Below, in pieces: positions 1 through 6,461 of a stretch of DNA of 64,000 nucleotides. Position numbers and translations under genes: made by a program. Source of the stretch: Candidatus Sulfopaludibacter sp. SbA3 (lineage in GTDB: Bacteria > Acidobacteriota > Vicinamibacteria > Vicinamibacterales > UBA2999); assembly GCA_945903265.1 (NCBI GenBank), contig CAMDNQ010000001.1:1-64000 (forward strand). The letters are read 5' to 3'. Under the pieces are notes generated by a model. It made no database searches and had not been told where the DNA came from. It saw only the letters and a list, made by a program, of their open reading frames with translations. Every line of letters starts with the position of its first letter. Within the stretch, counting starts at the first letter, position 1.

Positions 1-12
1 GCGCGACGAGCC

Positions 13-33
13 GGGCTAACGGTGGGCTAACGG
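13..33. repeat. Tandem 10-bp direct repeat next to the attachment site
   Basis: GGGCTAACGG occurs at 13-22 and again at 24-33 (11-bp period), and the pair is bracketed by two copies of CGCGACGA. It lies about 100 bp inside the putative integrative-element end defined by the tRNA fragment at 137-193. Tandem short direct repeats near an att site are typical of integrase arm-type or excisionase sites, but that role is inferred. The rest of 1-136 holds no convincing gene, only a small hairpin CGCTG-TTT-CAGCG at 100-112. Confidence 0.45.
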
Positions 34-136
34 CGCGACGAATGTGCCTGAAAAGGGCTGCACTGCCATGAAGCGCGATCGCTAGGGATTTCCTGGGATC
101 GCTGTTTCAGCGCGTGCCACCCCTTTTCGCCCGGAA

Positions 137-193
137 GGACTTAAAATCCCGGGACCCGAAAGGGTCGTGTGGGTTCGACCCCCGCCCCCGGCA
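137..193 (+). other. 3' fragment of tRNA-Leu(UAA), probable attR site
   Basis: The segment matches the 3' half of a bacterial tRNA-Leu. It has the end of the anticodon stem, loop CTTAAAA (anticodon TAA at 142-144), a long variable arm with stem GACCC/GGGTC, T-arm GTGGG-TTCGACC-CCCGC (169-185), acceptor strand CCCCGGC (186-192) and discriminator A193. CCA is not encoded. The 5' half is absent: no GCCGGGG acceptor strand or D-arm lies upstream, and pairing in the anticodon stem breaks at 135-136. A fragment running from the anticodon region to the 3' end is the classic footprint of tyrosine-integrase insertion into a tRNA gene. The intact tRNA and the element would lie to the left of the window. 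Confidence 0.75.
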
Positions 194-253
194 CTCATGC
201 CGCCCGTCAATGGCCTTTCCGATTGGGTACCCCTTAAATTGACGGTATTAAAT

Positions 254-262
254 TGGTATAGT
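254..262 (+). promoter_or_regulatory. Possible extended -10 promoter for the receiver gene
   Basis: TGGTATAGT at 254-262 has the form TG-N-TATAGT, an extended -10 element in an AT-rich patch (231-262) that stands out in this GC-rich window. No good -35 box sits 17 bases upstream; TTGACG at 239-244 is too close (12 bases). It would start transcription near 269, about 58 bases before the preferred start of the downstream gene. Confidence 0.35.
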
Positions 263-326
263 CGCCGTATTCAGTGAGTGGCACGCGACTCGTAGGGCCG
301 CGCTCTTCATGGCGGAGGAGTTTTCC

Positions 327-719
327 TTGAGTCGAGAGTTCCGCACAATCTTGCTCGTCGACGACTTTTCGGATGCCCTGGAAATGTATGAGGAGTACCT
401 CACGTTCAAGGGCTACCGGGTCGTCACCGCCGCTGACGGTCCCTCAGCGATCAACGCCGCGCAAGAACACCAGCCAGATCTCATATTGATGGATCTACAG
501 ATGCCCGTCATGAATGGGACTACGGCGTTGCAGATTCTGCGCTCGGACCCACGGTTCAACCACGTTCCCGTCGCCGCGCTCACGGCCCATGCCATGGAAG
601 ATGAACGTATCGCGGCCTTGCTTGCAGGTTTTGACGCAGTGATCCCGAAACCGTGTCTGCCCGATGAACTGGTGGTCGCCGTCGAACAACTGCTCGCGAC
701 GCCCCGCGAAGTGTCCTAG
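327..719 (+). CDS. Single-domain response regulator (CheY-like receiver)
   Basis: A stand-alone receiver domain with no output domain. In numbering from the upstream ATG at 309, the acidic pair is D18/D19 (LLVDD), the phospho-acceptor is D62 (LILMDLQMP), the conserved Thr is T92 and the Lys is K114 (PKP). I prefer the TTG at 327 because GGCGGAGGAG at 311-320 sits six bases before it, whereas the ATG at 309 has no Shine-Dalgarno. This shortens the protein from 136 to 130 aa without touching the domain. Such proteins relay phosphate to, or regulate, histidine kinases. No kinase is adjacent, so it is an orphan. It is the first chromosomal gene to the right of the putative integration site. Confidence 0.85.
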   Translation: MSREFRTILLVDDFSDALEMYEEYLTFKGYRVVTAADGPSAINAAQEHQPDLILMDLQMPVMNGTTALQILRSDPRFNHVPVAALTAHAMEDERIAALLAGFDAVIPKPCLPDELVVAVEQLLATPREVS

Positions 720-731
720 GAGCCGCGTCGG

Positions 732-1091
732 TTAATTCAGCGCTATCGAGCTGACGGCTATCTTCGAACCGCTCACAGCTCCCGTGACGGTGACCTTGAA
801 GTCCTTGTCTTTCCGCGATGATTTGCTGAGTTCGAGGGCGAGTTCATTGCCTTTCGAATCCAGCTCCATCATTTTCTTGTCTGCCAGAACCAGCGTGTAT
901 CCGCTCTTGATGCACCCGTCCATCAGGTTGCACATACGTGTGTGATTCTCTACGTAGCCAGGCTCCGTCGCGTGCCCTTTGGCGCAGACGGTATCGACCA
1001 GGTGGCCGCTGATCTTCTGACTCGTGGATTGGCTGGTGGCCACGCCGCTGAACGCAATCGCGAAAACACACGTGAGCATGATGTTCTTCAT
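732..1091 (-). CDS. Small exported OB-like protein
   Basis: A 119-aa protein with an N-terminal signal peptide (hydrophobic stretch at about residues 4-20, cleavage after VATS or SQS inferred). AAGGAG precedes the ATG at 1091 and fixes the start. The mature part contains three cysteines in the stretch TVCAKG...RMCNLMDGCIKSGY, then alternating beta-like segments (GYTLVLADKKMMELD, FKVTVTGAV, KIAVSSIAL). This resembles small acidobacterial exported proteins with an OB-like barrel and a Cys-rich N-terminal half. The function is unknown. It may be the last gene of an operon of exported proteins reading from 3315 down (44 bp after the NHL gene). Confidence 0.75.
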   Translation of the reverse strand: MKNIMLTCVFAIAFSGVATSQSTSQKISGHLVDTVCAKGHATEPGYVENHTRMCNLMDGCIKSGYTLVLADKKMMELDSKGNELALELSKSSRKDKDFKVTVTGAVSGSKIAVSSIALN

Positions 1092-1135
1092 CGCTCGCTC
1101 CTTATGCAGACCACAACCGGATGTGATTGGAACCC

Positions 1136-2380
1136 TCAGCGCGCCGCCGCACCGACGAGAAACTCCGGATTCGCGGCCGCGCGGGGGCGGAACTTCTGCG
1201 CTCGCCCATTGTCGACCTCCGCCACGTAAACGTTGCCCGCCTCGTCGACGCTGAGTCCGTGAACGCCCCAGAGGCCGCCGGGCCACGGCCCAAAGGCACC
1301 CCACGCGTAGATCAGGTTCCCGTCCAGATCGTATTTGACAATTTTCGACGACTCGCGATCGACAACCCACAGGTGCCGGTCCTGCGAGAGGTGCACGACG
1401 AGGCCTTCGGCGGACGGCGCCCGGCCGATGGACCACTGATCGAGGAACGTCCCGTGCTCGTCGAACACCTGGATGCGCCGATTGAGGCGATCGTTGACGT
1501 ACACGCGGCGCGTGTCCGGGTCGGTCGCAATACCGTGCACTTCGTTGAAGTAGCCGGGCCGGGTGTCGTTGGGCGGCGTGCCCTTCTGTCCCCAGGCCGT
1601 CTGATACCGTCCTTCGGCGTCGAACCGGACAACGCGGCTGTTGATGTAGCCGTCGGCCACGAACAGCGTGCTGTCGGGCAGCCACCAGAGGGCAGCAGGC
1701 CGCGCGAAGTGCGTGGCGTCCTCGCCCGGCACCTTCGGCGTGCCAAGTGTCTGCACCAGCTTCGATCCGTCGTTCGAGAATTTGTAGATGGCGTGGCCGA
1801 AGTCATCGACGACCCAGACGTGCTTCTCGGGATCGTACGGATTGACGTAGATGGAGTGCGGCCGCGTGAAGAGGGAATCCCACTGCGTCCACGTCTCCAC
1901 GATGTCGCCGTCGGCGTTGACGACGAGAATGCAGTGCTCCCAGCGGGCGTCGATGCCGGGACGGCCCGACCAGCTCGGATCGCCCATGCTGGAGAGCGAC
2001 GCGTTGAGGTGCGGACCGTGATCTACCGGGAAGATGAAGCTCGGGCCGATCTGCGGCAGTCGCGTGAACGGCGGACGGGTGACGACAGGCAGCTCACCTC
2101 GCTGCAGCACGAACACGCGGTTTGCGCTGTCGGCGGCGACGCCCGTCACCGTTCCCCACGTCCAGGCATCATGGCCGGGGAGCTGCGACAGCGGCTTCGG
2201 CCAGTCGGGCACCACGTCGTAGGCGCCGAAGAGATCCTGTCCACCTTTTTCACCCGCAACGGCGGCGAACCCGTTTCCGGGCGGCACGGCGTCGGAGGTC
2301 GGACGACCGGGCGTGCGCACCACGAGACCGATCGCAATTCCGATGGCGACCATCGCGATCGCCAACACTATTTTCCGCAT
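1136..2380 (-). CDS. Membrane-anchored NHL-repeat beta-propeller protein
   Basis: A 414-aa protein with an N-terminal hydrophobic anchor or uncleaved signal (about residues 3-20), then a propeller of NHL-type repeats. Recurrent strands such as VFVLQRGE, VWVVDDFGHAIYKF, LFVADGYINSRVVRFDAEGRY, VYVNDRLNRRIQVFDEHGTF, LWVVDRESSKIVKYDLDGNL and VYVAEVDNGRAQKF each end a blade. The fold is shared with peptidyl-alpha-hydroxyglycine alpha-amidating lyases and many extracytoplasmic binding proteins. A lyase function is possible but not shown by any residue I can verify. GGGAG lies upstream of the ATG. It is probably in the same operon as the Tat-exported hydrolase upstream (77-bp gap). Confidence 0.85.
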   Translation of the reverse strand: MRKIVLAIAMVAIGIAIGLVVRTPGRPTSDAVPPGNGFAAVAGEKGGQDLFGAYDVVPDWPKPLSQLPGHDAWTWGTVTGVAADSANRVFVLQRGELPVVTRPPFTRLPQIGPSFIFPVDHGPHLNASLSSMGDPSWSGRPGIDARWEHCILVVNADGDIVETWTQWDSLFTRPHSIYVNPYDPEKHVWVVDDFGHAIYKFSNDGSKLVQTLGTPKVPGEDATHFARPAALWWLPDSTLFVADGYINSRVVRFDAEGRYQTAWGQKGTPPNDTRPGYFNEVHGIATDPDTRRVYVNDRLNRRIQVFDEHGTFLDQWSIGRAPSAEGLVVHLSQDRHLWVVDRESSKIVKYDLDGNLIYAWGAFGPWPGGLWGVHGLSVDEAGNVYVAEVDNGRAQKFRPRAAANPEFLVGAAAR

Positions 2381-2457
2381 CGAATGCTCCCGGCCGGTTC
2401 GGCGTGAACGGGATGCTGCTGCTCCGAAGGAGCAGACAGCATCCGTCTGACTGGACC

Positions 2458-3315
2458 CTACGCCGTCCGATGCGACAGCAGGAAGCTGCGCACGTGACGC
2501 ACCGCCAGCGGAATCTTCGCCGGGGTGTCCTTCCAGGGATACATGCTCATCTGGCCTTTGGGCGCGAGCATCGCGCTTTCGATCGCGACCGGGAGTGAGT
2601 GGCCGGCGGTGTCGTCCGGCAGGACGAGCACCGGCGTCTGACAGCTCTTCACGAAGTCGCGATTGACCGTGAAGATGAAGTCGGGATTGTCGAGGAACAT
2701 CTTCGTCAGGAACCGGTCGGTCTGTTCCTTCGTGATCTCCGGTCGCCGCTTGATGAGCGCATCGCCCCAGCCTGTGGACTGGCTTTCATACAGCGATCGC
2801 GGCAGCTCAGGCCGAAACCCGACCGGCTGCACCGGCACCGCCGCGGCGACACGATTCGGCGCCCGCTTCATGAGATTCCAGATGAAGGGCCCCGCGATGC
2901 AGAAGCCCAGCACGGCGAACTGCTTGACGCCCAGGTGATCCATCAGCCCGAGGTGGTCGTCGGTGTGGGAGTCCCACGGGCGATCGATCTCCAGCGGGCC
3001 GGTGGACTGGCCGTTTGAATGGCGCAGGTCCGCGTAGATACAGCGGAAACTGTCCTTGAAGGCATCGAGCGTGTTGAAAGGATTCCCGCCGCGGATTCCC
3101 GCGATCGTCGAGCCATTCAGCCCGCCGCCCGCGATCAGCAGCAGGGGGAAGCCCGACCCCGTCTCCTCATAACGAATGCGGACATTGCCCTTCTCGTAGA
3201 AGCGCGCGGTCTCTCCGTTCCCGGCCTGCTGCGCGAGCACCGACGGCGTCGCGGCCATGGCCGCCGCCGCGGCGGCGCCCGTTTTCAAGAATTTGCGTCT
3301 GAATTCATCCACCAT
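2458..3315 (-). CDS. Tat-exported alpha/beta hydrolase with Cys at the nucleophile position
   Basis: A 285-aa protein. The N-terminus RRKFLKTG (residues 6-13) followed by an alanine-rich hydrophobic stretch ending LAQQ is a twin-arginine signal. The body is an alpha/beta hydrolase: YEETGSGFPLLLIAGGG (oxyanion region), the nucleophile elbow LGFCIAG with Cys139 where Ser is usual, and a candidate catalytic His in AGHSLP. Cys at the elbow occurs in dienelactone-hydrolase-type enzymes. Here the substrate is unknown, and annotation as a proline iminopeptidase-like hydrolase would be a guess. GGAGGAG precedes the ATG at 3315. It heads a run of three minus-strand genes that all encode exported proteins. 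Confidence 0.85.
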   Translation of the reverse strand: MVDEFRRKFLKTGAAAAAAMAATPSVLAQQAGNGETARFYEKGNVRIRYEETGSGFPLLLIAGGGLNGSTIAGIRGGNPFNTLDAFKDSFRCIYADLRHSNGQSTGPLEIDRPWDSHTDDHLGLMDHLGVKQFAVLGFCIAGPFIWNLMKRAPNRVAAAVPVQPVGFRPELPRSLYESQSTGWGDALIKRRPEITKEQTDRFLTKMFLDNPDFIFTVNRDFVKSCQTPVLVLPDDTAGHSLPVAIESAMLAPKGQMSMYPWKDTPAKIPLAVRHVRSFLLSHRTA

Positions 3316-3432
3316 ACGTTCTCCTCCAGCCTGCTGACGGCAGGCGACTATAACCCAACTAATGCGTGTCGGGGACCTGCCGCACTTTTCGCGTCAGGTC
3401 GGGTTGTCGGGGATAAGGGGAGCGGACGGAGT

Positions 3433-3723
3433 ATGCCCGCGGCGGAACACCTCTTGCTCTACCTAATGGCCATGAAGCTCGGGTATTACGCGCGCCGCGC
3501 CGCGAACGGTGTCATGACGCGGCGCCTGCTTCGCGCCTGGCCGTTCGTCGGCGGTGCTGTCGCCGTGCTGACGATTCTGGGAACGATCAGGAAGAAGGGC
3601 TTCGTCGGCGGGACGGTCGATACGGCGTTGAACGTCGTTCCCTATGTCGGCACCATGAAAAATCTCATCGAAGCCGGCCGGGGCCGCGACTTTATTCCCA
3701 CCCGTACTCGCCTACCGCGCTGA
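3433..3723 (+). CDS. Small membrane-associated protein of unknown function
   Basis: A 96-aa protein, not recognised. It is basic (RRAANGVMTRRLLR) with one hydrophobic segment, FVGGAVAVLTILG, at about residues 38-50, then IRKKGFVGGTVDTALNVVPYVGTMKN, whose small-residue pattern could form a second, weaker membrane helix. The ATG at 3433 is preceded by GGGGAG about ten bases upstream; an in-frame ATG at 3466 is an alternative. Its 3' end overlaps the convergent M1 aminopeptidase gene by 12 bases, and no terminator lies between them. Confidence 0.6.
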   Translation: MPAAEHLLLYLMAMKLGYYARRAANGVMTRRLLRAWPFVGGAVAVLTILGTIRKKGFVGGTVDTALNVVPYVGTMKNLIEAGRGRDFIPTRTRLPR

Positions 3724-6318
3724 CGCCTGATTGGCCAGCCAGGGGGCCATCAGCGGCGACTGCCGCGCCGCGAGGGCGGCGCAGTTGTCGATCCGCTCGA
3801 CCGCCTGCCGCAGGGTGCGTTCGGACGAGGGGACCGGATTCTTCTCGAAAAACTGGCGGACCTCAACCGCGGCTGCCGGCGAGCAGAAAGCGCCGGTCGC
3901 TCCGATGATGCCCGGGATGCCCTGGAACGTTCCGAGCTTCTGCGTGAGTGTCGGCCACTGCGTGCGCACGAAGCTCCACGCGGCATCGCGCGACCACGGG
4001 CGCACGATGAGGCCGGCCAGGAGCGTCCCGGTGTCCTGCGTGCGGACATCAGGTGACATCGCGAAGGCCAGCGTGCGCCTCGTCAGCTCCGGATCGCGGA
4101 ACCACGTCAGCGCGTCGAAGAACCGGTAGTAGTCGTCCGGCTGTGCGGACAGCGTCTTCAACTGCGCCAGATAGGCGTCGTACAACGCCGCGTCGCCGCC
4201 GAGCGCGGCCATGCGGAGCACCGAGCCCGCCAGCGTACCCGGGAGCGCCGATGGATCCGCCATGTACTGCCGTGCAAGCTCGCGTGCGCGCTGCTGCACG
4301 GCGGCGCTCTCGCCCGTCAGGCCGAGCAGCGCGATGAGCTGCGCGCGGCGGCTGTGCCGCTCGTCGGTGTCGCCGCGATCGCCGGGCCATCCAAGCGCGT
4401 CCAGCGCGGGAGCGAAGCGCTCGCGCACCCACGCGTGATACTGCGCGCGCTGGCCGGCAGGCACGATGTCCTCGCCGATGACGGCGAGGCGCCCGGCGAG
4501 GGCGTCGACGACAGCGGCCGTGTCGTCGGTGGCCATCCCGCCGGCGAGATCCAGGTACACACCGATGTCGTGGCGGCCCGCTCGCACCATCCACCATTCA
4601 TCGCCCAGCAGGCCGATGCGCTCCACCGGCTTCAGCCCTGCCGCGCTCTTCGCGAGCGCGCGCACGGCATCGGGCGTGTACTCGGTGAAGTAGTAGCCGC
4701 GGCCGTCGGCGTTGGCGAAGACGTTGTTGCATCCGGGCGCCTGGAGCGTCTGCTGCCGCTGCTCCAGCACCTGGCACCGCGGCGCGCCGTTCGTCTTGAA
4801 GCAGACGGGAACGGCCCAGAGCTGATCCGAGGCGGGCCTCGCCCCCGGCGCGGCCGAGAAGCGCTCCTGCCGCAGTGTGATCTCGGAGTTGGTGCCGGTG
4901 CACCGGCTCTGCACCGTAATCAGCGGTACTCCAGCCTGCTCGATGTAGGCCTTGAGGATGCGATCGATCGGCTGCCCCGTGACACGCGCCATCTCGGCCC
5001 AGAAGTCCTCGCCGGCGGCGTTCGAGAAGGCGAATTTCTTCAGGTACGACGCGATGCCCTTCCGGAACTGATCGGCGCCGACGAAGCCCTCGACCATCCG
5101 CAGCACGCCGGCGGTTTTCTCATAGGCGATGCCGTCGAAGACCTCGTTGATTTCATCAGGGGTCTCGACGTGGATCCGAATCGCCCGCGTGGTCTGGAGC
5201 GCGTCCAGGCCGAGCGCTCCCTGCGTGTCGGCCGCGTCGTCGAGATCGACTTTCCAGTCGGGCCGCCACTGCGCGATCGGCTTGCTGGTAATCCAGGTGG
5301 CGAACCCTTCGTTCAGCCAGATGTCATCCCACCATTTCATGGTGACGAGGTTGCCGAACCACTGATGCGCGATCTCGTGGGAGATGATGCCGGCGACGTT
5401 CTTCTGCGACCCGAGCGAGGCGGTCTTCGGGTCGATGAGCAGCAGGCGCTCGCGGAACGTGATGGCGCCGGCATTTTCCATGGCGCCGGCGGCGAAATCG
5501 GGGACCGCGATGATGTCGAGTTTCCCGAACGCGTACCTGATGCCGAAGTAGTTGTTGAAGAAGGCGAGCTGCTGCTGCGCCGCCTCGAGTGCGAACGCCG
5601 TCAGGCCAAGCTTGTCCGGCGTCGAGCAGACGCGGATCGCGGTGCCATCAGACGTTCCCGATCGGCACACAAAATCGCCGACGATCATCGCGACGAGATA
5701 CGTGGGCATCTTCGGCGTCGTGGCAAACGTGACCGTGTGCTTGCCCCCTTCTGGGCCCGGCGTGTCGGAGAGCTGCGCGCCGTTCGAAATCACGCTGTCG
5801 GCGGCATCCACCATCAGCGACAGCTCGAAGGTGGCCTTGAAATGGGGCTCGTCAAACGAGGGGAACGCGCGGCGCGCATCCGTGGCTTCCATCTGCGTCA
5901 CGGCGTACTTGCGGCCGTTGGCCCGGCTCAGGTAAAACCCACGCAGCTTGTCGTTGAGGATGCCCGTGTACGCGATCTGGATCGACGCCGCTCCGGCGCC
6001 GATCTCCTGGGGCACTGTGAAGGTTGCGGTTTCTGCTTTCGGATCGAGCGAGACCCGCGCGGTCTGCGTGCGCCCTCCGGCGGTGATGGTGACGTCCCCG
6101 AACGTAATTTCAGCCGCGTGGAGCGTCACGCTGCGCGTGACGGCGCGAATATTCACGCGAATCGTTTCCCGTCCACGAAAGGTTTCCTTTTCGAGGTCCG
6201 GCGCAAACCAGAGCGTGTAGTGTTCGGGAACGACCGTCGCGGCGAGCCGCTGCGCCGAGGCAGGCGCTGCCAGAAGCACGGACGGAAGAAAGGCGAAGGC
6301 AACAAGCAGGCGTCGCAT
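3712..6318 (-). CDS. M1 family zinc aminopeptidase, exported
   Basis: An 868-aa gluzincin that removes N-terminal residues from peptides. The exopeptidase motif GAMEN (about residues 278-282) and the zinc site HEIAH-X18-E (His314, His318, Glu337, in HEIAHQWFGN...WLNEGF) are intact, so it should be active. The downstream half is the helical C-terminal region usual in the family (ERAP/PepN type). I chose the ATG at 6318 because it starts a clear signal peptide (RRLLVAFAFLPSVLLAAPASAQ). A longer frame up to 6420 would place 34 polar residues before the signal. The enzyme is therefore probably periplasmic. It is monocistronic, divergent from the lipoprotein gene at 6462. Confidence 0.93.
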   Translation of the reverse strand: MRRLLVAFAFLPSVLLAAPASAQRLAATVVPEHYTLWFAPDLEKETFRGRETIRVNIRAVTRSVTLHAAEITFGDVTITAGGRTQTARVSLDPKAETATFTVPQEIGAGAASIQIAYTGILNDKLRGFYLSRANGRKYAVTQMEATDARRAFPSFDEPHFKATFELSLMVDAADSVISNGAQLSDTPGPEGGKHTVTFATTPKMPTYLVAMIVGDFVCRSGTSDGTAIRVCSTPDKLGLTAFALEAAQQQLAFFNNYFGIRYAFGKLDIIAVPDFAAGAMENAGAITFRERLLLIDPKTASLGSQKNVAGIISHEIAHQWFGNLVTMKWWDDIWLNEGFATWITSKPIAQWRPDWKVDLDDAADTQGALGLDALQTTRAIRIHVETPDEINEVFDGIAYEKTAGVLRMVEGFVGADQFRKGIASYLKKFAFSNAAGEDFWAEMARVTGQPIDRILKAYIEQAGVPLITVQSRCTGTNSEITLRQERFSAAPGARPASDQLWAVPVCFKTNGAPRCQVLEQRQQTLQAPGCNNVFANADGRGYYFTEYTPDAVRALAKSAAGLKPVERIGLLGDEWWMVRAGRHDIGVYLDLAGGMATDDTAAVVDALAGRLAVIGEDIVPAGQRAQYHAWVRERFAPALDALGWPGDRGDTDERHSRRAQLIALLGLTGESAAVQQRARELARQYMADPSALPGTLAGSVLRMAALGGDAALYDAYLAQLKTLSAQPDDYYRFFDALTWFRDPELTRRTLAFAMSPDVRTQDTGTLLAGLIVRPWSRDAAWSFVRTQWPTLTQKLGTFQGIPGIIGATGAFCSPAAAVEVRQFFEKNPVPSSERTLRQAVERIDNCAALAARQSPLMAPWLANQASAR

Positions 6319-6461
6319 GGTGTAACGGTAGATCCGCGCGCGGGGTATGGGCAAGGTTCTCGCACTAGAGCTGGCTACGCTGGTAATCTGGCGCAAATCC
6401 GCACGATTTCTGTGCATCACTAACGGTTTATGTCCGTCCTGAATACGGATGAGGAGGCGAC

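Follow-up and report, generated by a model that had tools for sequence, protein, structure and literature searches.

The window analysed here covers the first 64 kb of contig C1; the genome, 98.9% complete, has 3.52 Mb in 45 contigs. Positions 137–193 on the plus strand represent the 3′ half of a tRNA-Leu(UAA) gene. This half opens with GGACTTAAAATCC and closes with CCCCCGGCA; GGA, the loop CTTAAAA, and TCC are followed in it by a long variable arm, the T arm, and CCCCGGCA, with the 3′ strand of the acceptor stem included. Its 5′ limit falls within the anticodon stem, on the 5′ strand (GGA), and the entire anticodon loop is included. The fragment aligns without gaps, over its full length, to the corresponding halves of intact tRNA-Leu(UAA) genes in relatives, with up to 53 identical positions out of 57. 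It is present at 100% identity in a single copy in the 3.5-Mb genome (E=2.7e-27), and the intact tRNA-Leu(UAA) of contig C14 comes next with 81%. The original prediction that only the 3′ half of a tRNA-Leu stands at the start, beginning inside the anticodon stem, has been borne out, as ARAGORN finds no tRNA in the window and no 5′ half precedes the fragment. The 29 bases in front of the core match the orthologous 5′ half from the relative genome G022 at only 9 of 29 positions, which is the chance level. A group I intron or another structured RNA at the window start has also been considered and rejected, with no Rfam match in positions 1–1200 even at permissive E-values.

To the right of the fragment, positions 194–3711 encode a response regulator (309–719, plus strand), a small secreted-type protein (~732–1090, minus strand), an NHL-repeat protein (1136–2380, minus strand), and an alpha/beta hydrolase (2458–3315, minus strand). 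They are followed by a gene for an M1-family peptidase (3712–6420, minus strand), which is the first gene of a conserved right flank. The conservation is evident from G022, a genome of the same family, where contig C10 carries homologues of the C14 genes, one intact tRNA-Leu(UAA), and homologues of the window genes, with order and orientation kept. Nucleotide identity to G022 is 70–78% over the last ~10 kb of C14 and 73–75% over the colinear stretch of the window from 3755 to ~17000; the peptidase, which lies downstream of the intact tRNA in G022, shares 69% amino acid identity. Thus, the arrangement on a single contig in G022, an uninterrupted site, makes C14 and C1 chromosomal neighbours, between which an element has been inserted in the genome studied here. 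Colinearity of the right flank does not reach the tRNA itself, as the segment 194–3711 is missing from the otherwise syntenic G022. All four genes of this segment are without a counterpart there, and no tRNA remnant is found at the far end of the segment. It is chromosomal flank outside the element and represents a separate difference between the two lineages.

The left junction is found on two other contigs. The only intact tRNA-Leu(UAA) of the genome occupies C14:88407-88495, about 150 bases short of the C14 end, and the last 149 bases of C14 are exactly the first 149 bases of contig C43 (10,402 bp), which makes the two contigs contiguous. About 80 bp beyond the intact tRNA, and inside the element, lies the gene of a tyrosine integrase of 419 amino acids (C43:75-1334) with the domains Arm-DNA-bind_3 (PF13356) and Phage_integrase (PF00589). 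It is followed on C43 by genes for AbiEi, AbiEii, a Crp-like regulator, TrbC/VirB2, VirB3, VirB4, CagX/VirB9, and TrbI/VirB10, the last being interrupted by the contig end. VirB4 is thus accompanied by four further proteins of the MPF-T set, and the gene layout is that of the integrase end of an MPF-T/Trb-type conjugative element. Homologues of this VirB4 with 70–71% identity are present in other genomes of the order. The AbiEi/AbiEii pair, a type IV toxin–antitoxin system directly behind the integrase (L051:1213-2975), probably serves to stabilise the element.

The first 136 bases of the window contain a tandem repeat resembling arm-type sites, CGGGCTAACGGTGGGCTAAC, at positions 12–31 on the plus strand, where two GGGCTAAC units stand 11 bp apart, that is, with a spacing of one helical turn. 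An exact copy of this 20-mer is located on the other arm, at L040:254-273 (C43:55-74), in the same direction, and on both sides it is ~105 bp away from the 13-bp core. Among 2000 shuffled pairs of arms, none shared 20 bases, the longest common stretch being 16. Beyond the window copy and the copy in the C14/C43 overlap, the 20-mer does not occur in the bin; the 20-bp repeat has no match in IMG/VR either, and the rest of positions 1–136 has no match elsewhere in the genome. The presence of the repeat in both arms ties the left end of C1 to the C43 element. The repeat probably is the site in attP that is bound by the arm domain of the integrase. In the relative G078, which has a 68%-identical integrase directly downstream of tRNA-Leu(UAA), GGCTAAC stands just ahead of the integrase start codon.

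The end of C43 is not joined to the start of C1 by any contig in the bin, and no other contig end there matches the last 400 bp of the former or the first 140 bp of the latter. This missing link, together with the serial tRNA-Leu(UAA) fragments of some relatives (e.g., G050 and G034), could be taken to mean that positions 1–136 end a second, tandem or degenerate element at the same tRNA and not the C43 element. We consider this improbable: the arm repeat is identical and equidistant from the core on the two sides, as it should be for one attP, and the bin holds neither a second integrase of the C43 kind (at E<1e-60) nor another identical tRNA-Leu(UAA) fragment. Insertion of one element, with its integrase end on C43 and its other end on C1, remains the preferred reading; the right end is assigned to it by synteny and the common arm repeat, without a single continuous contig.

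The origin of the two tRNA halves can be traced by comparison with the uninterrupted allele of G022. This allele is identical to the C14 tRNA at 28 of 29 positions in the 5′ half but at only 46 of 57 from the core onward, while it matches the window fragment at 52 of 57 positions and has the same trailer, CTC, in place of the CCA found on C14. The window half and the C14 half in turn agree at 46 of 57 positions (81%), less than is usual for att repeats, and exactly only over the 13 bases of GGACTTAAAATCC. An intact tRNA-Leu(UAA) had been expected to end in the same 57 bases; the intact gene was indeed found, but the exact repeat is confined to this core (window 137–149, plus strand), the sole junction-adjacent stretch that attL, attR, and the empty site have exactly in common. 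The core consists of the 7-nt anticodon loop CTTAAAA between GGA and TCC. Given how each half matches the G022 allele, strand exchange most likely took place within it. To judge from these sequences, the window half is the original chromosomal 3′ half of the host gene, and the C14 tRNA is a hybrid of the host 5′ half and a 3′ half brought by the element.

The divergence of 19% between the fragment and the intact copy, and the location of the fragment 136 bases from a contig end, would also suit an assembly artefact, or a tRNA-Leu pseudogene or decayed duplicate that has nothing to do with integration. Such an origin is very improbable, however, since the half is well formed and begins at the anticodon loop like a usual attachment core, an integrase adjoins the intact copy, and the two arms have the 20-mer in common; moreover, it is contradicted by G022, in which C14 and C1 are neighbours on either side of a single intact tRNA. 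Although group I introns are classically found in tRNA-Leu(UAA), an intron or split tRNA upstream of the fragment deserves hardly any credence, given that the anticodon loop is complete (GGACTTAAAATCC) with no cut after U34 and that a complete tRNA-Leu(UAA) is present on C14.

We are highly confident that window positions 1–193 constitute the right-hand boundary (attR) of an integrative element, most likely an ICE, in a tRNA-Leu(UAA) gene. According to the proposed mechanism, attP and the tRNA gene would have been recombined by the C43 integrase at the 13-bp core, whose middle is the anticodon loop. The element's own tRNA-Leu 3′ half would have been joined to the host 5′ half at attL on C14, giving a complete hybrid tRNA gene, and the host 3′ half would have been displaced to the far end of the element, where positions 137–193 (plus strand) would be its scar. 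Positions 1–136 (plus strand), up to the contig start at position 1, would then be the right-hand terminal bases of the element, its attP arm on the element side of attR. In its main points, this agrees with the original prediction. The fragment had been regarded as the direct-repeat scar of a tyrosine-integrase element, and an integrase gene was expected between the tRNA copies; it was found at C43:75-1334, directly beyond the C14 tRNA. The intact tRNA and the element had been placed to the left, in accord with C14:88407-88495, the 149-base overlap, and the G022 synteny, which also supplies the order in which the regenerated tRNA stands at one end and the fragment in the same orientation at the other. 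The anticipated relative lacking the element is G022, where one intact tRNA on C10 joins both flanks. The assignment of positions 1–136 to the last bases of the element is upheld by the 20-mer shared with the C14/C43 side and by the chance-level match to the tRNA 5′ half.

The element is regarded as ICE-like because it carries the AbiEi/AbiEii pair and the VirB2-3-4-9-10 cluster, and most likely it is an ICE of the MPF-T/Trb type; its conjugative ability and its present activity are presumed. No coupling protein (T4CP) was detected in the bin with PF02534 or with a coupling-type protein from a related cluster as the query, nor was there a match in the bin to the relaxase families PF03432 and PF08751, the interior of the element being outside the bin. 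Such an absence is what loss of the interior during assembly or binning would lead one to expect, and it is for this reason that ICE status is given as likely. The VirB4-related clusters of G107 and G034 were examined as the source of coupling-protein and relaxase queries. The G107 cluster was rejected as an instance of the same integration module, as it lies near a serine recombinase and tRNA-Met instead.

One of the closest known systems is the anticodon-centred class among the tRNA-gene islands of tyrosine integrases in the Islander database, where 2083 of 3919 islands belong to this crossover class and 3760 leave 3′ fragments (PMC4383910). As in this class, the integrase stands beside the restored tRNA, the displaced 3′ fragment lies in the same orientation at the far end, and the crossover is at the anticodon loop. 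The C43 element departs from the class in that its own 3′ half and the host half that it displaced disagree at 11 of 57 positions and in that its two ends lie on separate contigs. A mismatched half is known from the mycobacteriophage Boilgate/attB-4 type, where attP carries a tRNA 3′ half that yields a functional tRNA at attL even though it is mismatched to attB, and where putative arm-type sites flank the core (PMC10865867). The C43 element resembles it in both respects. Boilgate, however, is a phage using tRNA-Lys(TTT) with a 43-bp core and 5 differences (PMC10865867), whereas here a conjugation-type element uses tRNA-Leu(UAA) with 57 bases and 11 differences. Like the MPF-T ICEs CTn4371 and MlSymR7A (PMC3158045), the element has VirB4 with VirB3, VirB9, and other MPF-T/Trb proteins near the integrase, but in contrast to them only VirB2/3/4/9/10 are visible, with neither coupling protein nor relaxase recovered. 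Overall, this is a clear but ordinary case of a known process, the insertion of an element in a tRNA gene, and, for a bacterial lineage that has received little study, it documents the attachment site of a conjugation-type element with good support. It also indicates that a 13-bp core can be enough even when the tRNA half is otherwise diverged; such elements would thus escape searches that require a long identical repeat.

What the element would have rewritten in the host tRNA-Leu(UAA) amounts to 11 of 57 positions, an encoded CCA, and a G28-U42 wobble. The G-U pair at 28/42 of the C14 tRNA was tried as proof of its hybrid nature and abandoned. It was seen in none of 17 relatives at first, but a set of 45 tRNA-Leu(UAA) genes, this one included, has 22 G-C, 19 A-U, 3 G-U, and 1 C-G pairs, the other G-U pairs coming from two genomes of one genus; the pair is therefore supportive only. 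It may be suggested, tentatively and with more doubt than conviction, that the element takes a diverged tRNA-Leu 3′ half of its own from one bacterial family to another and that, wherever it integrates, half of the only tRNA-Leu(UAA) gene of the host is rewritten. If so, integration would be one way in which hybrid tRNA genes originate and are disseminated in the order.

tRNA-Leu(UAA) is a recurrent target in the order and is used by several unrelated integrases. An intact tRNA-Leu(UAA) and further 3′ fragments on the same strand occur on one contig in G034, G050, G036, G049, and G040, and unrelated tyrosine integrases lie near the gene or a fragment in G040, G034, and G030. In G049, G050, and G036, the tested proteins adjoining the tRNA are not integrases, and these genomes are no more than suggestive as cases of insertion. 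Outside the order, no close relatives of the C43 integrase were found, the best being 33% identical (a Nitrosomonas MAG), with about 30% or less on plasmids.

Several further observations concern tRNA genes and mobile elements in this set of genomes. On G107 contig C9, a large serine recombinase gene (L139:9140-10819) runs into the 3′ end of a tRNA-Met near the C43-related VirB4 cluster; the conjugation modules are related, and the integration enzymes differ. G078 has a second, odd tRNA-Leu(UAA)-like gene with the acceptor GGCCGGG on contig C51 (L089:874-960), where it shares a short stretch with the integrase homologue and an IS91-type transposase; this gene is possibly element-borne. Four further contig ends in G000, the starts of C2, C9, C13, and C15 (loci L042-L045), each lie past a tRNA gene, within 400 bp of its 3′ end. 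The causes of these breaks differ: as read by eye, there is apparently a piece of an IS3-like transposase at C13 and a tuf gene at C15, and the starts of C2 and C9 could be other island sites.
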